A stretch of DNA of 33,598 bases from an uncultured Gemmiger sp. (GTDB lineage: Bacteria > Bacillota > Clostridia > Oscillospirales > Ruminococcaceae), in NCBI GenBank assembly GCA_947631565.1, contig CANRLV010000021.1, positions 1 to 33,598 of the forward strand. Direction: 5' to 3'. The notes under the pieces were generated by a model. That model did not search any database. It saw only the letters and a list, made by a program, of their open reading frames with translations, and was not told the origin of the DNA. The translations under genes were made by a program, and so were the position numbers. Below, piece by piece: positions 2,332-10,518 of the stretch (its first letter is position 1; each line of letters opens with the position of its first letter).

Positions 2332-3306
2332 TCAAGGTAAATATCTGCGCCAATATTCCAGCATGTTATGGACGGTCTGCTCCATCGGGATCTGCTGCTG
2401 CCAGCCGGTGTGCTCCACGATCTTGGCGATGTCTCCGACGATGATCTTTTCATCGGTGGGACGCAGCAAAGCCTGATCGACCTCTAAATCAAAACAGACA
2501 CCCATATCCTTCTCGATCATCTCGATGATTTGCGATATCTCATACACATATCGGCCGGAAATATTGTAGACCTCGCCGGGATGTCCCTTCTCTGCCAAGA
2601 GATACAACGCATGCACCAAATCATCCTGGTCCATGATGGCCCGCCGTGTGTGCAGGTTGCCGACCCGCAGTTTATAGCTGCCTGTGCGCTCACATTCAAT
2701 GGCACGCCGCGTAAAATCAGAAGTAACATCATTTACCTTGCGGGTGCCGGTGGTGTTGAAAATGCGCGCCCGGATGCAGCGGATGTGGTCGTTCATGAAA
2801 TATTGATACGAAAGCAGGTCCTGCGCCACCTTGCTCACGCCATAAGGATGCAGTGGCTTGAGCTCCGCGGTTTCCTTGACCCGGTGGGTACCTTTCAGCT
2901 CATTCAAGGTCTGACCGTATTCAGCGCTGGAGCAAGCCACGACCACAACCGGGTCATAGGCATTGTCAAAATGGCGGCGCACCTTCTTGATGGTCTCGTA
3001 GATGGCAAGTGTCCCATGGATGTTGATATCCATCGTCTCATACGGCTTTTCCCACGATACTGTGGGGTAACTCTGCGCTGCCAGATGAAATATCTGATTC
3101 GGACGGTATTCTAAAATGATGCGCTCTATGTTCTCCGGGTAACGTATGTCGCATTCCCGCAGGTCGATGGCCGGATCTATGGTATGCAGATCGACGGTAG
3201 GCTTATAATAGGTGCCAAGCACGCTGTCAGCACCAAATTTGTCATAAAGAAACTCGACCATATGCGATCCGACCATCCCGCCTGCACCGGTGACAAGATT
3301 CTTCAT
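2332..3306 (-). CDS. NAD-dependent epimerase/dehydratase (GMD-like SDR)
   Basis: A 324-residue extended short-chain dehydrogenase that modifies a nucleotide sugar, close in style to GDP-mannose 4,6-dehydratase and related reductases. It shows the TGAGGMVG Rossmann motif (6-13), HLAAQS (74-79), SSAEYG (126-131) and the catalytic YGVSK (Y155, K159). The C-terminus RPTDEK plus TGWQQQIPMEQT is typical of the family. ATG at 3306 is chosen because AAAGGAG precedes it at ideal distance; the frame is open further upstream but without a ribosome site. It is the first gene after the putative invertible promoter and probably supplies an activated deoxysugar for a surface glycan. Exact substrate unknown. 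Confidence 0.88.
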   Translation of the reverse strand: MKNLVTGAGGMVGSHMVEFLYDKFGADSVLGTYYKPTVDLHTIDPAIDLRECDIRYPENIERIILEYRPNQIFHLAAQSYPTVSWEKPYETMDINIHGTLAIYETIKKVRRHFDNAYDPVVVVACSSAEYGQTLNELKGTHRVKETAELKPLHPYGVSKVAQDLLSYQYFMNDHIRCIRARIFNTTGTRKVNDVTSDFTRRAIECERTGSYKLRVGNLHTRRAIMDQDDLVHALYLLAEKGHPGEVYNISGRYVYEISQIIEMIEKDMGVCFDLEVDQALLRPTDEKIIVGDIAKIVEHTGWQQQIPMEQTVHNMLEYWRRYLP

Positions 3307-3373
3307 TTCAACTCTCCTTTTTGGTTGTGTAGGTACAACCGCACCGGCACCGTACTCACCTCTCACACGTATA

Positions 3374-3401
3374 GGCAACAGAATGAATATTCTGTTCTGC
3401 C
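3374..3401 (-). repeat. Left inverted repeat of a putative invertible promoter
   Basis: On the minus strand the 13 bases AACAGAATATTCA (3384-3396) match exactly the plus-strand bases 3640-3652. The site is itself a near-perfect dyad: AACAGAAT and ATTCTGTT flank a 4-bp centre, as expected for two recombinase monomers. It lies in the 5' leader of the epimerase operon. Confidence 0.6.
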
Positions 3402-3639
3402 AAAGCCCTGCATATAGGCACACTTACCCTTTATAAAGCATTAGAAGTATAGCATATAGGGTCTCAAAAAGCAAGCCTTACCCCCCAAAGGGCGAATTTT
3501 AATAAAATTTGGCATGACAAACAAGGCTGTAAAAGAAAAGCACTTTTATGGCATTCTTCTATTTGCGCTTTTTTGCGAAACAGGGCCGTTTTGACACAAC
3601 AGCTAAAGCTCTGTCAACGCCTTTTCTTTCTGCAGTGGT
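3397..3639. other. Putative invertible DNA segment (promoter switch)
   Basis: A 243-bp A+T-rich, gene-free segment bounded by inverted 13-bp repeats, holding one outward promoter and lying between a tyrosine recombinase gene and a polysaccharide operon. This matches the layout of known phase-variable promoters (fim-type switch, gut-bacterial invertons). No good promoter is seen in the opposite direction. A further dyad, TTGACA (3591-3596) with TGTCAA (3612-3617) around AGCTAAAGCT, could bind an accessory factor. Inversion itself is inferred. Confidence 0.6.
3446..3474 (-). promoter_or_regulatory. Sigma-A promoter of the polysaccharide operon, inside the invertible segment
   Basis: -35 TTGCTT (3469-3474) and -10 TATACT (3446-3451) with a 17-bp spacer, pointing toward the epimerase at 3306. 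It lies between the two 13-bp inverted repeats, so inversion would point it away, toward the recombinase 3' end. In the orientation shown the operon should be ON. Confidence 0.7.
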
Positions 3640-3664
3640 AACAGAATATTCACTTTGTCACCGG
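3638..3664 (+). repeat. Right inverted repeat of the putative invertible promoter
   Basis: AACAGAATATTCA (3640-3652) is the exact inverse copy of 3384-3396. Similarity continues more weakly outward (TTTGTCACC here against TCTGTTGCC in the other copy). It lies about 25 bp past the stop of the recombinase gene. Confidence 0.6.
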
Positions 3665-3687: not shown

Positions 3688-4542
3688 CTATGATACCAGT
3701 CCCAACCGTTCAAGGTGCCGGGCGTGTTCCTCGCCGGTCGAGACCAGGTAGATACGCGTCGTCTCGATGCTGGAATGCCCCAGCACATCGGCCAGCTGCA
3801 CGATATCCTTGCATACCTTATAATAGGTACGGGCAAACAGGTGCCGCAGGTTGTGCGGGAACACCTTGCCCGGCTCGACACCCGCCGCTTTGCACAGACG
3901 CTTCATCTGCGCCCAAATCGCGCAGCGGGAGAGTGGCTTGCCGTCCGTGCCCACAAACAGTTGCCCTCTCTGAATTTTCCGTTCTTTGGCAAACTTTTTT
4001 AACTTGCGGCAAAGCTTGCCGGGCAAAAGAATCGTGCGTATTTTACCTTTGAGCGAGATTTGGGCAAAGCCTTTTTGCACAGCCTCAACAGTGATGCACT
4101 GCACCTCCGAAACACGGATACCGGTGCCACAGATGCTCTCCATGAGCAGGGCCAATTGCAGCTTGTGCTGCCGTTCGGCCGCGGCCAGCAATCGCTCGTA
4201 CTCGGCACGCGAAAGGTCCTTTTCCTTGCTGCGGAACACCCGCCGCTGGATGCGCAGGAACCGCACCCGGCAGTCTGGCCAGCCCATGCAGCCCAAGAAG
4301 CTGTGCAGGGCCGCCAGCTTGCCGTTGACAGTCGATGGAGCCAGTCCCTGTTCCACAAGGTTTGCCTTCCAAGCGGCGGTCAAGTCCTTACTGACAGAAC
4401 GGCTCTGCAGCCAGGCGGCAAACATGCGGATATCCCGCAGATACTTTTCTATCGTGGCAGCCGAGCGTTCCTCACACAAAAGCCAGGCTTTGAACCGGCT
4501 TATCTTTTCTTCCGTGATTCGGTGGTTCGGATTTGTGAACAT
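3688..4542 (-). CDS. Tyrosine recombinase (XerC/D-like), likely DNA invertase of the adjacent promoter
   Basis: A 284-residue site-specific tyrosine recombinase with both usual domains: an N-terminal SAM-like core-binding domain (about 10-90) and a catalytic domain (about 105-280). All catalytic residues are visible: R143 (GIRVSE), a lysine in LKGK near 165-167, H230 and R233 (PHNLRH), H256 (LGHSS) and nucleophile Y265 (RIYL). Its size fits Xer and FimB/E-like enzymes without an arm-binding domain, rather than larger phage integrases. ATG at 4542 has AAGGGGG upstream. It lies next to the inverted repeats around the polysaccharide promoter, which are its probable substrate. It could instead belong to the element that left the tRNA-Pro fragment, but its size and position favour the switch. 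Confidence 0.9.
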   Translation of the reverse strand: MFTNPNHRITEEKISRFKAWLLCEERSAATIEKYLRDIRMFAAWLQSRSVSKDLTAAWKANLVEQGLAPSTVNGKLAALHSFLGCMGWPDCRVRFLRIQRRVFRSKEKDLSRAEYERLLAAAERQHKLQLALLMESICGTGIRVSEVQCITVEAVQKGFAQISLKGKIRTILLPGKLCRKLKKFAKERKIQRGQLFVGTDGKPLSRCAIWAQMKRLCKAAGVEPGKVFPHNLRHLFARTYYKVCKDIVQLADVLGHSSIETTRIYLVSTGEEHARHLERLGLVS

Positions 4543-4655
4543 ACTAAATACCCCCTTAAATGTTTTGCCTTGTCGTCAGTTACATCATTGTACTGCCTTT
4601 TTCCCCGTTTTGCGGCTGCCCGAGAAAAACATAGAGAAATCATTCTGACAAAACG

Positions 4656-4696
4656 AAGTCCCTCACACAGACCTGGTCTTGTGTGAGGGACTTTGT
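4656..4696. terminator. Strong bidirectional intrinsic terminator
   Basis: AAGTCCCTCACACA (4656-4669) pairs perfectly with TGTGTGAGGGACTT (4680-4693): a 14-bp stem with a 10-nt loop. T-rich tails lie on both strands. It separates the divergent recombinase and HTH genes and would stop read-through either way. No gene is supported between 4543 and 4879. Confidence 0.8.
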
Positions 4697-4843
4697 TTTA
4701 TTTGGGTCGGATTCTCTTTTGCTTTTTCTCAAATGGTCATCCCTAAAGGTGTGCTCTGCTCCGGCCCAAAATCGACGAAAATCGACAAAATCGGCAAATT
4801 GAGGAACCATCATTCCTTGTGAAGGCACCTTGTTACTATTACG

Positions 4844-5475: not shown

Positions 5476-6856
5476 TTGGGGGCGAAAACAGGGTGGCCCG
5501 CCACGACGGCGAGAACAGATAGTACCCCACCATACACAAAAGGCCAAAGCAGAACGAGACCGGGATGCTGGCCATCACCCAGGTGCCGTCGAACCAGCGG
5601 CTGATGAGCCATGCGCCGGGGATGCGCACCGCCCACAGCATGAGCAGGTTGACCGCCGTGGTGTAGCGCACGCGGCCCACGCCGTTGACGCAGTTGGTCA
5701 TGGCGCTGAAAGCGGCAAACACCCACTGCGAGAGCAGCAGCACCTGCACATAGCGCTGGGCGTAGTAGAGCACGGCCGGGTCCCGATTGAACAGCCGCAG
5801 CAGCGGCAGCTGGAACTGCAGCATGAGCAGACCGCAGGCCAGCGTGATGGCGCCGGAGGCCAGCGGGATACGCAGCGCGCCGCGGCGCAGGCGTTCCCTG
5901 TCCCCGGCGCCGAAGTTCTGCCCCGCAAAGGTAAGCGCCGCGCCGGACAGCGCGTTGACCGCGACGTTGGTCAGGTTGGTGACGCGCCCGCCCACCGAGG
6001 TCGCGGCCATGAACACCGCGCCCTGCGCGTTGATAAAGGTCTGCATGGCCAGGTGCCCGAAAGAGAACAGCGAGGAGTTGAGCCCGATGGGCAGCCCCAA
6101 CCGCACGATGCGCCCCAGCTCCCGCCAATCACACCGCCCGGGCAGCACCGGGAAGCCGAGCTCCGGGGACCTTTTGCGCAGGTACAGGATGCTGATGCCC
6201 CACGAGAGCATCATGGCGGCGGCGGTGGCCAACGCCACGCCGCCCACGCCCCAGCCCAGCCACGCCGTAAAAACGAGGTCGAGCGTGATGTTGGTGATGC
6301 AGGACACGACCAGGAACCACAGCGAGGCCTGGCTGTCGCCCATGCCGCGCAGGATGCCGGCGTTCATGTTGTAGCCGATGTTGCCCAGCGTACCGCAGAA
6401 CACAAGGCGAGTATACAGCACCGCCTGGGCGAAGGTATCGGCCGGGGCCTGCATGAAACGCAGGATGGCCGGCGCGCACAAAATGCCCAGGATCCCCACC
6501 GGGACACCGCATAAGTAGACAAAAAAGACCGATGTATGGCAAAGCCGACCGACCCGTTCGTCGTTCCCGGCGCCGACGCACTGGCTGACCAGGATGGACA
6601 CGCCCTTGCCGATGCCCAAAAACACGCAGAGCACCACCTCGACAGGCTGTGAGCTGGTGCCCACGGCGGCCAGTGCCGCGGTCGAGCACCAGCGGCCGAT
6701 AACGAGCGTGTCGACGGTGGTATAGAGCTGCTGCAGAACATCGCCCAGAATGATGGGCAGGGCGAACAGCAGCACGCCCCGCACGATGGGGCCGGCGGTC
6801 ATATCGACCTTGCCGCTGTGCGGGTGGTGGTAAGAGGTCAACTGGTGGTGGTACAT
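5468..6856 (-). CDS. MATE family efflux transporter
   Basis: A 462-residue integral membrane protein of the multidrug and toxin extrusion family, expected to have 12 helices and to export organic cations or drugs by Na+ or H+ antiport. Typical family features include LLFALPIILGDVLQQLY in helix 1, the repeat-half similarity beginning at VRLGLPIGLNSSLFSFG, and ILRGMGDS, a common MATE loop. The frame is open farther upstream, but ATG at 6856 is preferred: it has GGGAG upstream and gives a normal-length N-terminus. It is read from a good promoter 97-125 bp upstream. The substrate cannot be predicted. Confidence 0.9.
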   Translation of the reverse strand: MYHHQLTSYHHPHSGKVDMTAGPIVRGVLLFALPIILGDVLQQLYTTVDTLVIGRWCSTAALAAVGTSSQPVEVVLCVFLGIGKGVSILVSQCVGAGNDERVGRLCHTSVFFVYLCGVPVGILGILCAPAILRFMQAPADTFAQAVLYTRLVFCGTLGNIGYNMNAGILRGMGDSQASLWFLVVSCITNITLDLVFTAWLGWGVGGVALATAAAMMLSWGISILYLRKRSPELGFPVLPGRCDWRELGRIVRLGLPIGLNSSLFSFGHLAMQTFINAQGAVFMAATSVGGRVTNLTNVAVNALSGAALTFAGQNFGAGDRERLRRGALRIPLASGAITLACGLLMLQFQLPLLRLFNRDPAVLYYAQRYVQVLLLSQWVFAAFSAMTNCVNGVGRVRYTTAVNLLMLWAVRIPGAWLISRWFDGTWVMASIPVSFCFGLLCMVGYYLFSPSWRATLFSPPNA

Positions 6857-8429: not shown

Positions 8430-9565
8430 ATGACTTCTTTCATCAAATCAACCTTCTCCAGGGCGGTCTTCTCGTCCAGGAAGGTCCTGTCGATCATATC
8501 GATCTCGATCTCTGCTTTCGGGATGCCGATATTTTTGGCCGAGACAAAATCACATTTGCAGCTCTTGTTGCGGAGCACCACGGCACCTTTGGCGCCGGAT
8601 GCTTCGATAAGCGCTTTCAGGCGCCGGTTCCGGGTCTCCTGCGATAAATTGAGGAAGGTATCATTGTACGCGTTGAACAGGCAGGTGAACGGGTCGCTGC
8701 CGGTATAATCCAGGCTCCACCATGTGATGTAGTTGGCGCCCACGAGCCGGCAGCCCGTCAGCACAGACGGCAGATATCGATCCGGGTGATACCAAAGCGG
8801 ATATCCGACCCAGAACAGCGGGATGAGGTCTTTGTCCGCGGCCGGCATCGCGCGCAGGCTTTCCTCCATCACGGCATACAGCTCCGCCGTCTCGGGCTTG
8901 CAGCGTGCCGTGATCAAAAAATTGATGTCGTCAAACAGAGCTGTGGGCACGATCTGCTTGTCCTTCAAGTGTGCGATCACGGCATTCCACGCTTTTACGC
9001 TGTTGGCACTGTTGGCGATCAGCTCCGCAAGGCGGTCCATATCCAGCGTATTCCCGCTCAGCGCTTCCAGTTCCGCGATCAGGCGCTTGTGCTGTTCGGT
9101 CACATAGCGGCAGGCCGCATCCCGGTCCGCAGCGTCGCCGGGATAATCCAGCACGATGAGCTGCACATGATACCGCTCGGCCAAAATGCTCCACCAGCCG
9201 GGCAAGGTGTTGCACTGGTTGTTCGTCGCAATGAGGATGTCCGGTCTGGGCGGCGTGCCCCGCGGCCCTTCCTCCAGCTCCAGGCAGCCCTGGATACAGC
9301 AGGAATACGAGCAGCAATCCCTGCAAAGACCGGTCTCCTCGCTCTTTTCGAGCAGGGACTGCTCCATATCGCTGGCGGCGATCACGGCCGCATAGCTTTC
9401 GGGGTAATAATAGGCAATGTCCAGCGCTTCCAGGATCTCGACCGGGGTAAAGGCCGTCACCCAGGCGACCTTTTTGTCCGGGCGTTTTCCCTTGGCGTAC
9501 TTGGAGAAATACCGGTAATACTCCAGCATCAATCTGGCCTGGAGCTTGGCGATCGTCTGTGCCAT
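8417..9565 (-). CDS. 2-hydroxyacyl-CoA dehydratase-family subunit (HgdB-like), Cys-rich N-terminus
   Basis: A 382-residue member of the HgdB/FldC/BcrC and double-cubane family of [4Fe-4S] enzymes activated by HgdC-type ATPases. Expected cluster ligands include C118 (NNQCNT) and C336 (NKSCKCD, the common SCK motif). The N-terminal part has an unusually dense group, C81, C84, C85, C89, C90 and C94, within 14 residues, which could hold an extra metal site. AGGAG lies eight bases before the ATG. It is eleven bases from the preceding subunit gene and overlaps the activator gene. No CoA-transferase or acyl-CoA dehydrogenase is nearby, so classical 2-hydroxyacid fermentation is not indicated. The true substrate is unknown; the lipoyl genes upstream suggest a thiol or lipoyl partner. 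Confidence 0.85.
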   Translation of the reverse strand: MAQTIAKLQARLMLEYYRYFSKYAKGKRPDKKVAWVTAFTPVEILEALDIAYYYPESYAAVIAASDMEQSLLEKSEETGLCRDCCSYSCCIQGCLELEEGPRGTPPRPDILIATNNQCNTLPGWWSILAERYHVQLIVLDYPGDAADRDAACRYVTEQHKRLIAELEALSGNTLDMDRLAELIANSANSVKAWNAVIAHLKDKQIVPTALFDDINFLITARCKPETAELYAVMEESLRAMPAADKDLIPLFWVGYPLWYHPDRYLPSVLTGCRLVGANYITWWSLDYTGSDPFTCLFNAYNDTFLNLSQETRNRRLKALIEASGAKGAVVLRNKSCKCDFVSAKNIGIPKAEIEIDMIDRTFLDEKTALEKVDLMKEVICAD

Positions 9566-9576
9566 AACAACATCTC

Positions 9577-10518
9577 CTACAGCATATCCGCAAAAGCCTC
9601 AGCCTGCAAAGCGACCTTGCGGCTGTCCTCTGAGTGGAGCAGGCTCAGTTTTAGAACGGGGATATTTTCTTCCTCCAGCCGCCTGCGGTACACGGAATAG
9701 AGGTACTCATACGGCTCGCAGTATTTCTGCATCACCATGATGACGCCCTGCACGTTTTTGCGCCGCATTTCGTCAAGGTCGGCATCAAGGATCCCCGCAA
9801 AGCAGTTCTGCGTCGGCGAGGGCTTGCGCCGCAGGATGGCTTCGGCAATATTTCGGTAAAGGTCCCCTTCGGTCGCCGTTGGCGGCGCACTGCCCAGCCG
9901 CCCCGATTCCGGCAGGTCGTCCCCCACGATCTTCAGGCCGGCATTTTCGATCAGCTCTGCCACCGTCGGGTTGGCGAGAAAGGACCCGACCAGAAAGACC
10001 CGTTTGCCGTCCTTTCGCCCGGTCTTCAGCGCGGTCTTCAGCTCCTGCCGGTACAGCGGCCGGCGCAGATTCTCATGGATGTCGGAGAGGTAGTCAAAAT
10101 AATCGACCGCGGCCAGATCGTCATACCGTTCCCGGATCGCGGCGTTGCGCCGATTCACCGCCTCGGTCCGTTCCCGGATATCCCGGAGCGTGACATGGTA
10201 ATGGTCCTCCACCGCCTGCCGGTAGCGCCGGATCTCCCCCGCAAAGAAATCGACGGCCGCCGCATCCGTTCGTGCCGGGACATGGAGCCGAAAAAGGAAT
10301 TTCCCGCTTTCTTCGAGATAGCTGGCCATCGTGCGGCAGCTGTCACAGGACTTGGGGAACACCGCACCGTCAATGCCGCTGTCATTTGCCGCCTGCGACA
10401 GAAAATCCGACGCATATCCGCAGAATGCCGCGATATTGCGCTCCCCCGGATAGTGCGTGAAGCGCACCGTATCACAGATCTGCTCCGGTATGAACCCGGA
10501 CATCGACAGGATATTCAT
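9577..10518 (-). CDS. 2-hydroxyacyl-CoA dehydratase-family subunit (HgdA/HgdB-like)
   Basis: A 313-residue second subunit of the same FeS family. Likely cluster-binding cysteines are C58 and C61 (PKSCDSCRT), C33 (AFCGY) and the C-terminal QKYCEPYEYLY, the counterpart of the family's conserved KFCDP segment. With the 382-residue neighbour it would form the usual heterodimer, each subunit with its own cluster. ATG at 10518 is chosen over an in-frame ATG seven codons upstream because GGAGG sits six bases before it, and its ATGA overlap with the lipoate ligase stop shows translational coupling. Reaction unknown. Confidence 0.85.
   Translation of the reverse strand: MNILSMSGFIPEQICDTVRFTHYPGERNIAAFCGYASDFLSQAANDSGIDGAVFPKSCDSCRTMASYLEESGKFLFRLHVPARTDAAAVDFFAGEIRRYRQAVEDHYHVTLRDIRERTEAVNRRNAAIRERYDDLAAVDYFDYLSDIHENLRRPLYRQELKTALKTGRKDGKRVFLVGSFLANPTVAELIENAGLKIVGDDLPESGRLGSAPPTATEGDLYRNIAEAILRRKPSPTQNCFAGILDADLDEMRRKNVQGVIMVMQKYCEPYEYLYSVYRRRLEEENIPVLKLSLLHSEDSRKVALQAEAFADML

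Follow-up and report, generated by a model that had tools for sequence, protein, structure and literature searches.

A putative invertible promoter beside a tyrosine recombinase gene and a sugar gene cluster in an uncultured Gemmiger

In Escherichia coli, the fim switch is a ~300-bp promoter inversion carried out by the neighbouring tyrosine recombinases FimB and FimE. The capsular polysaccharide promoters of Bacteroides (Mpi type) are served by one serine recombinase that acts on many promoters. The locus described here lies in a 33,598-nucleotide stretch of DNA from an uncultured Gemmiger sp. (the window, meaning the whole stretch analyzed) and has features of both. As in fim, a putative promoter inversion is paired with a neighbouring tyrosine recombinase; as in the Mpi type, a promoter that would flip between inverted repeats would drive polysaccharide genes. 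Unlike the Mpi type, it belongs to a Firmicute and pairs one segment with an adjacent tyrosine recombinase. Its recombinase is unlike the fim type in having an N-terminal SAM-like domain and in matching the NCBIfam tyrosine-type DNA invertase model weakly (25.5 bits, far below the cut-off of 221).

Recombinase-linked invertons have already been published for Clostridia (Jin et al. 2025, PMC11892184). According to the main text of that paper, inverton group 139 comprises 33 invertons, 32 of them from the class Clostridia, and is linked to tyrosine-type invertase group 35; orientation shifts among its members occur in cultures of Clostridium sp. D5 and Intestinimonas butyriciproducens. The window switch is like these groups as described in the main text (PMC11892184), a tyrosine-type recombinase linked to an inverton in Clostridia, and by that likeness may belong to inverton group 139 and invertase group 35. 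The main text mentions neither Subdoligranulum nor Faecalibacterium, and no paper on phase variation or DNA inversion in Gemmiger, Subdoligranulum, or Faecalibacterium was found, as judged by titles and the first part of abstracts. The kind of switch is known; its re-aiming from one gene to another seems to be the twist of this window.

The candidate invertible segment, including its repeats, spans positions 3384 to 3652 and is bounded by an exact 13-bp inverted repeat, TGAATATTCTGTT (3384-3396) and AACAGAATATTCA (3640-3652), with 243 bp between. The inverted repeats flank an intergenic segment, as in an inverton, and the observation of the preliminary description that the same 13 bases occur here in inverse orientation is exact. 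Dinucleotide shuffling of the 650 nt that follow the recombinase stop codon gave a comparable 13-bp pair 2 times in 3000. In the organism's own genome (2,469,088 bases in 140 contigs), the 13-mer occurs exactly at these two places, and no further exact copy was found in the 2.47 Mb; with one mismatch allowed, there are two further places, and none for the reversed control pattern. The repeat extends to a 19-nt pair (3378-3396 and 3640-3658) that is 89% complementary. Each copy lies in a dyad-like site, as had been noted, the right one with two departures. The distal site, ACAGAATGAATATTCTGT (3378-3395, plus strand), adjoins the sugar genes and has perfect 7-bp arms flanking GAAT. The proximal site, ACAAAGTGAATATTCTGT (3641-3658, minus-strand reading), adjoins the 3' end of the recombinase gene, is also a dyad and has the same GAAT centre. 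The two 18-bp sites differ at 2 of 18 positions, both in one arm, which counts against a working switch; the core and the other arm are identical, and the core of each site is also present in the closest relative described below.

The tyrosine recombinase (3688-4542, minus strand, 284 aa) has Phage_integrase and N-terminal SAM-like domains (PF00589, E 2.3e-26, and PF02899). It is a complete gene, as first described: the reading frame is whole and all six catalytic residues (R143, K167, H230, R233, H256, and Y265) are present. An intact recombinase is adjacent to the segment. Its orientation had been misread, since the gene does not start 25 bp beyond the right repeat; it is the stop codon that faces the repeat, at a distance of 35 bp from the 13-mer and 29 bp from the 18-bp site. 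Upstream of the gene is a strong terminator-like hairpin (4650-4699) with 20-nt arms that are 95% complementary, and a similar one is seen by eye in the closest relative. No tRNA was found in the window.

The putative promoter within the segment reads on the minus strand, toward a dehydratase gene. It consists of a -10 hexamer TATACT (3446-3451) with a TG extension (TGcTATACT) and a -35-like hexamer TTGCTT (3469-3474) at a 17-bp spacing; the same -35-like hexamer is present in the closest relative. An upstream element, TGCCAAATTTTAT (3502-3514, minus strand), is found in the organism's own genome at only two places, both ahead of sugar genes, and is possibly a regulator or UP site. By consensus the promoter is weak, matching at only 8 of 12 positions, which counts against the switch, and a generic promoter scan did not list it. 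That scan gave nothing above shuffled sequence: one promoter-like site (shuffle mean 1.1) and three terminator-like sites (mean 2.0). A weak terminator-like site from the scan (3526-3552, plus strand) lies inside the segment, and no convincing terminator was found there by folding. The segments of some relatives seem, by eye, to carry a hairpin followed by T's.

The promoter call is made because TATGCTATACT, which covers the -10 region, is conserved in three loci, and not from the consensus score. When the window segment is aligned with that of the closest relative and with a locus on contig C6 of the organism's own genome, both TATGCTATACT and TGCCAAATTTTAT are invariant. By conservation, the segment would carry a promoter that is aimed at a gene in one orientation. 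The C6 copy (C6:58940-59083, equivalent to L002:1501-1644) is 73% identical to the window segment over 145 bp, shares the TGCCAAATTTTAT 13-mer, and is without the 13-mer repeat; the recombinase's closest relative on C6 lies at a distance of ~21 kb, with 26% identity. The C6 promoter faces several consecutive same-strand genes; by inspection, these include a sugar-kinase-like gene, a 422-aa guanylyltransferase-like gene, two glycosyltransferase-like genes, and others. An ORF upstream of it (L002:1538-2098, minus strand) resembles, by inspection, a serine-recombinase N-terminal domain. The occurrence of a similar promoter ahead of a second sugar gene cluster speaks for promoter function and also for reading the window as the ON state, in which the promoter faces the dehydratase gene. 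The 17-bp-spaced promoter of the preliminary description, pointing to an "epimerase" gene, holds as to spacing, direction, and conservation in three loci, and is less secure in its poor consensus and its absence from the generic scan; the ON state that had been proposed from it agrees with the present data.

The first gene under the promoter (2332-3306, minus strand) encodes a sugar-nucleotide enzyme similar to GDP-mannose 4,6-dehydratase (PF16363, E 1.4e-50). It is followed on the same strand by a frameshifted relic (1937-2331), guanylyltransferase-like by inspection, whose longest ORF resembles the start of the intact 422-aa gene at C6:56276-57544, and by a 364-aa glycosyltransferase gene (805-1899; PF00534, E 1.6e-33). 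The proposal of a surface-polysaccharide operon stands insofar as sugar genes lie on the promoter strand, and is weakened in that one of the three genes is a broken relic. From these gene assignments, the switched product may be located on the surface as a glycan.

The preliminary description had suggested that related genomes be compared for the opposite orientation, and this was found in the closest relative. A recombinase search of the genus (35 genomes including the organism's own, E 1e-30 or better) gave matches in 23 of the 35 genomes, 31 in all including that of the window. The closest, locus L041 (G029:C88, a Gemmiger metagenome-assembled genome), has a recombinase 84% identical to that of the window. 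Its repeats, 3' of the recombinase gene, are TGAATATTCTGT (5892-5903) and ACAGAATATTCA (6151-6162), spanning 271 bp with both arms included; the repeat is exact over 12 bp, just under the score threshold of 13 used below, and the sites are imperfect. When the inner segments of the two loci were aligned locally, the score was 59 with one segment reversed and 10.5 in the forward orientation, the maximum of 253 shuffled pairs being 15. The flanks on the recombinase side are alike and in register. Beyond the distal repeat the two loci are also in register and can be aligned as far as CACAACCAAAA. Between the window and L041, only the segment between the repeats has turned. The L041 promoter is directed at the recombinase gene from its 3' side.

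The arrangement recurs in the wider recombinase family. Drawing 396 genomes from the taxonomic family gave recombinase matches at E 1e-50 in 84 genomes, belonging to 48 of 126 genera. The set of 59 loci surveyed comprised the window, L041, 28 of the 29 further genus matches (the remaining one yielded no locus), and 29 loci from the family draw. Loci with at least 450 nt of downstream sequence were scored for an inverted repeat of score at least 13 with its first arm at most 150 nt from the recombinase stop codon. Such a repeat was present in 44 of the 52 loci with enough flank, in none of 57 upstream controls (one of them wrongly sliced) and in 1 of 59 mononucleotide shuffles. The eight loci below threshold, which count against the switch, were L041 itself, L015, L029, L032, L083, L088, L091, and L097. 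By eye, ACA(A/G/T)AAT ... ATT(A/T/C)TGT is common to many sites and the centre differs.

Orientation could be compared among segments that align. In a first set of 23 segments, orientation was decided for 46 of 253 pairs, 20 alike and 26 opposite. A stricter score limit retained 23 pairs, which formed two groups, one of 12 loci (5 in one orientation and 7 in the other) and one made up of the window and L041, with no contradictions. When the set was enlarged to 45 segments, the same limit was passed by 34 pairs, which connect 21 loci in four groups; these pairs accept a two-label assignment, again with no contradictions, and three of the four groups hold both orientations. Both orientations thus occur among orthologs. 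The other 24 segments gave no pair above the score limits, which counts against the switch. In genome G009, AAAGTACGGTTTTGTTGCAAAAAGCT forms the end of the recombinase contig, and its exact reverse complement opens a second contig that leads into the downstream gene. This break would fit the presence of both orientations in the sequenced population; G009 is another species in ~1110 contigs, and the break may have another cause. A contig pair in G023, where a recombinase contig ends at its repeat, was considered as a second case of mixed orientation and dropped, as the end sequences of the two broken contigs differ. In G046, two equal-scoring recombinase copies (C19:7985-8803, plus strand, and 9147-9965, minus strand) face each other ~340 bp apart, either a palindrome or an assembly artefact.

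Because of the repeats, the catalytic residues, the reversed ortholog with its flanks in register, the recurrence in the family and the conserved promoter, the locus is very probably a phase-variation switch, in which the neighbouring recombinase inverts the promoter segment and turns the sugar genes ON or OFF. The interpretation of an invertible promoter segment, as originally proposed, is well supported by the reversed relative, the recurrent repeats and the occurrence of both orientations. In the proposed mechanism, the recombinase would bind both inverted 18-bp sites, on which it presumably acts, and strand exchange in the common GAAT-centred core would invert ~250 bp. In the ON state, that of the window, the segment promoter would drive leftward transcription that crosses the distal site, enters the dehydratase gene and reaches the glycosyltransferase gene. 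In the OFF state, as in L041, the promoter would face the recombinase gene, entering at its 3' end, and leave the sugar genes without a promoter. Speculatively, this OFF promoter, being antisense to the recombinase gene, could damp flipping.

A chance inverted repeat at an ordinary promoter might be suspected from the shortness of the 13-bp pair by itself; given its rarity among shuffles, its recurrence in the family and the reversed ortholog, coincidence is scarcely credible. It is very unlikely that the recombinase is the integrase of a mobile element whose attachment sites are inverted by chance, with the orientation difference a mere rearrangement. The recombinase does fall within the broad Xer/integrase superfamily, and the genes beyond the switch differ between the window and L041, but the reversal is limited to the ~250 bp between the repeats and the same geometry is found in 44 of the 52 family loci.

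A former switch that inverted in the past and is now fixed ON, its recombinase silent or its right site too diverged, has more in its favor and is still improbable. The two departures of the right site from a perfect dyad, the similar C6 promoter that has neither the 13-mer nor a close recombinase relative nearby, and the decay of one cluster gene speak for it. Against these stand the whole frame and six catalytic residues of the recombinase, the core and one arm that are identical in both sites, and the sites of L041, which are also imperfect and yet flank a segment in the opposite orientation. Under the preferred reading, that of a working switch, flipping would be current in the strain of the window.

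The target of the switch appears to have changed. In L041, the in-register flank runs into a helicase gene beginning MPVRLYPHNQKAYTL, with ResIII, DEAD, Helicase_C, and helicase-associated domains. The corresponding stretch of the window, immediately before the dehydratase gene, is PVRLYLHNQKGELK followed by a stop codon and preceded by GTG. This relic of a helicase gene start (3318-3350, minus strand) reads (V)PVRLYLHNQK, the leading GTG being read by eye, then GELK and the stop; L041 has MPVRLYPHNQK. The relic codons are assigned to the helicase because a second helicase of the L041 type, in G028 and 65% identical, begins MAIQLFAHNEKAYR (start read by eye). A search at E 1e-40 places the helicase in G028 and G029, 2 of the 35 genus genomes, and gave no match in the window's own genome. 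Since the window keeps the first 11 helicase codons, the switch was probably re-aimed between targets. In the simplest history, the sugar genes probably took the place of the helicase gene behind a pre-existing switch.

In sister loci, the switch is followed by something else. A P0003-type paralog of the tyrosine recombinase lies directly after the switch region in 13 of the 29 further genus loci when longer flanks are taken, four of the 29 being without downstream sequence. It is the first gene after the switch region at L061:1898-2725 and in L052-L056, L059, L062-L064, L067, L069, and L072, with first-ORF lengths of 264-355 aa. In most of these loci a very large protein comes next, often with a signal-peptide-like start by inspection; the one that was scanned has VWA and DUF7604 domains. 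P0003 matches the recombinase models weakly (46.1 bits, cut-off 220), and a Pfam scan gave no match. Sixteen paralogs were aligned: the 13 of the switch regions, a second copy in L062, and the more distant L051 and L057. The positions of R143, K167, H230, and Y265 are non-catalytic in all 16; of the remaining two residues, R233 survives in 12 paralogs and H256 in a single one. Among the 31 distinct active recombinases aligned with them, 27 have all six residues, and the other four are partial reads (broken frame or contig end). Pairwise dN/dS among the paralogs is ~0.1-0.4 (five pairs, simple NG86), so that the paralog, although devoid of catalytic residues, is apparently under purifying selection. 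At E 1e-40 it occurs in 13 of the 35 genus genomes and is not found in the window's own genome. Open-access literature searches on inactive recombinases listed a paper on phase variation in C. difficile and one on a Vibrio element; as listed, neither describes such a paralog.

It is tentatively proposed that recombinase and inverton form a cassette whose output has been swapped in evolution (the helicase in L041, sugar genes in the window, and very large surface-protein-like genes in other Gemmiger), and that the paralog-first sister loci might give the ON state a feedback on the switch, for example if the paralog occupied the sites or bound the active recombinase. The window provides one more clear example of promoter switching by a recombinase, here in a gut Firmicute (Gemmiger, as judged by kinship) and ahead of a sugar gene cluster. 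One ancestral switch has probably been re-aimed between targets, with a short molecular scar remaining. If it is true that the inactive paralog modulates flipping, phase variation in the sister loci would have a built-in, testable feedback.
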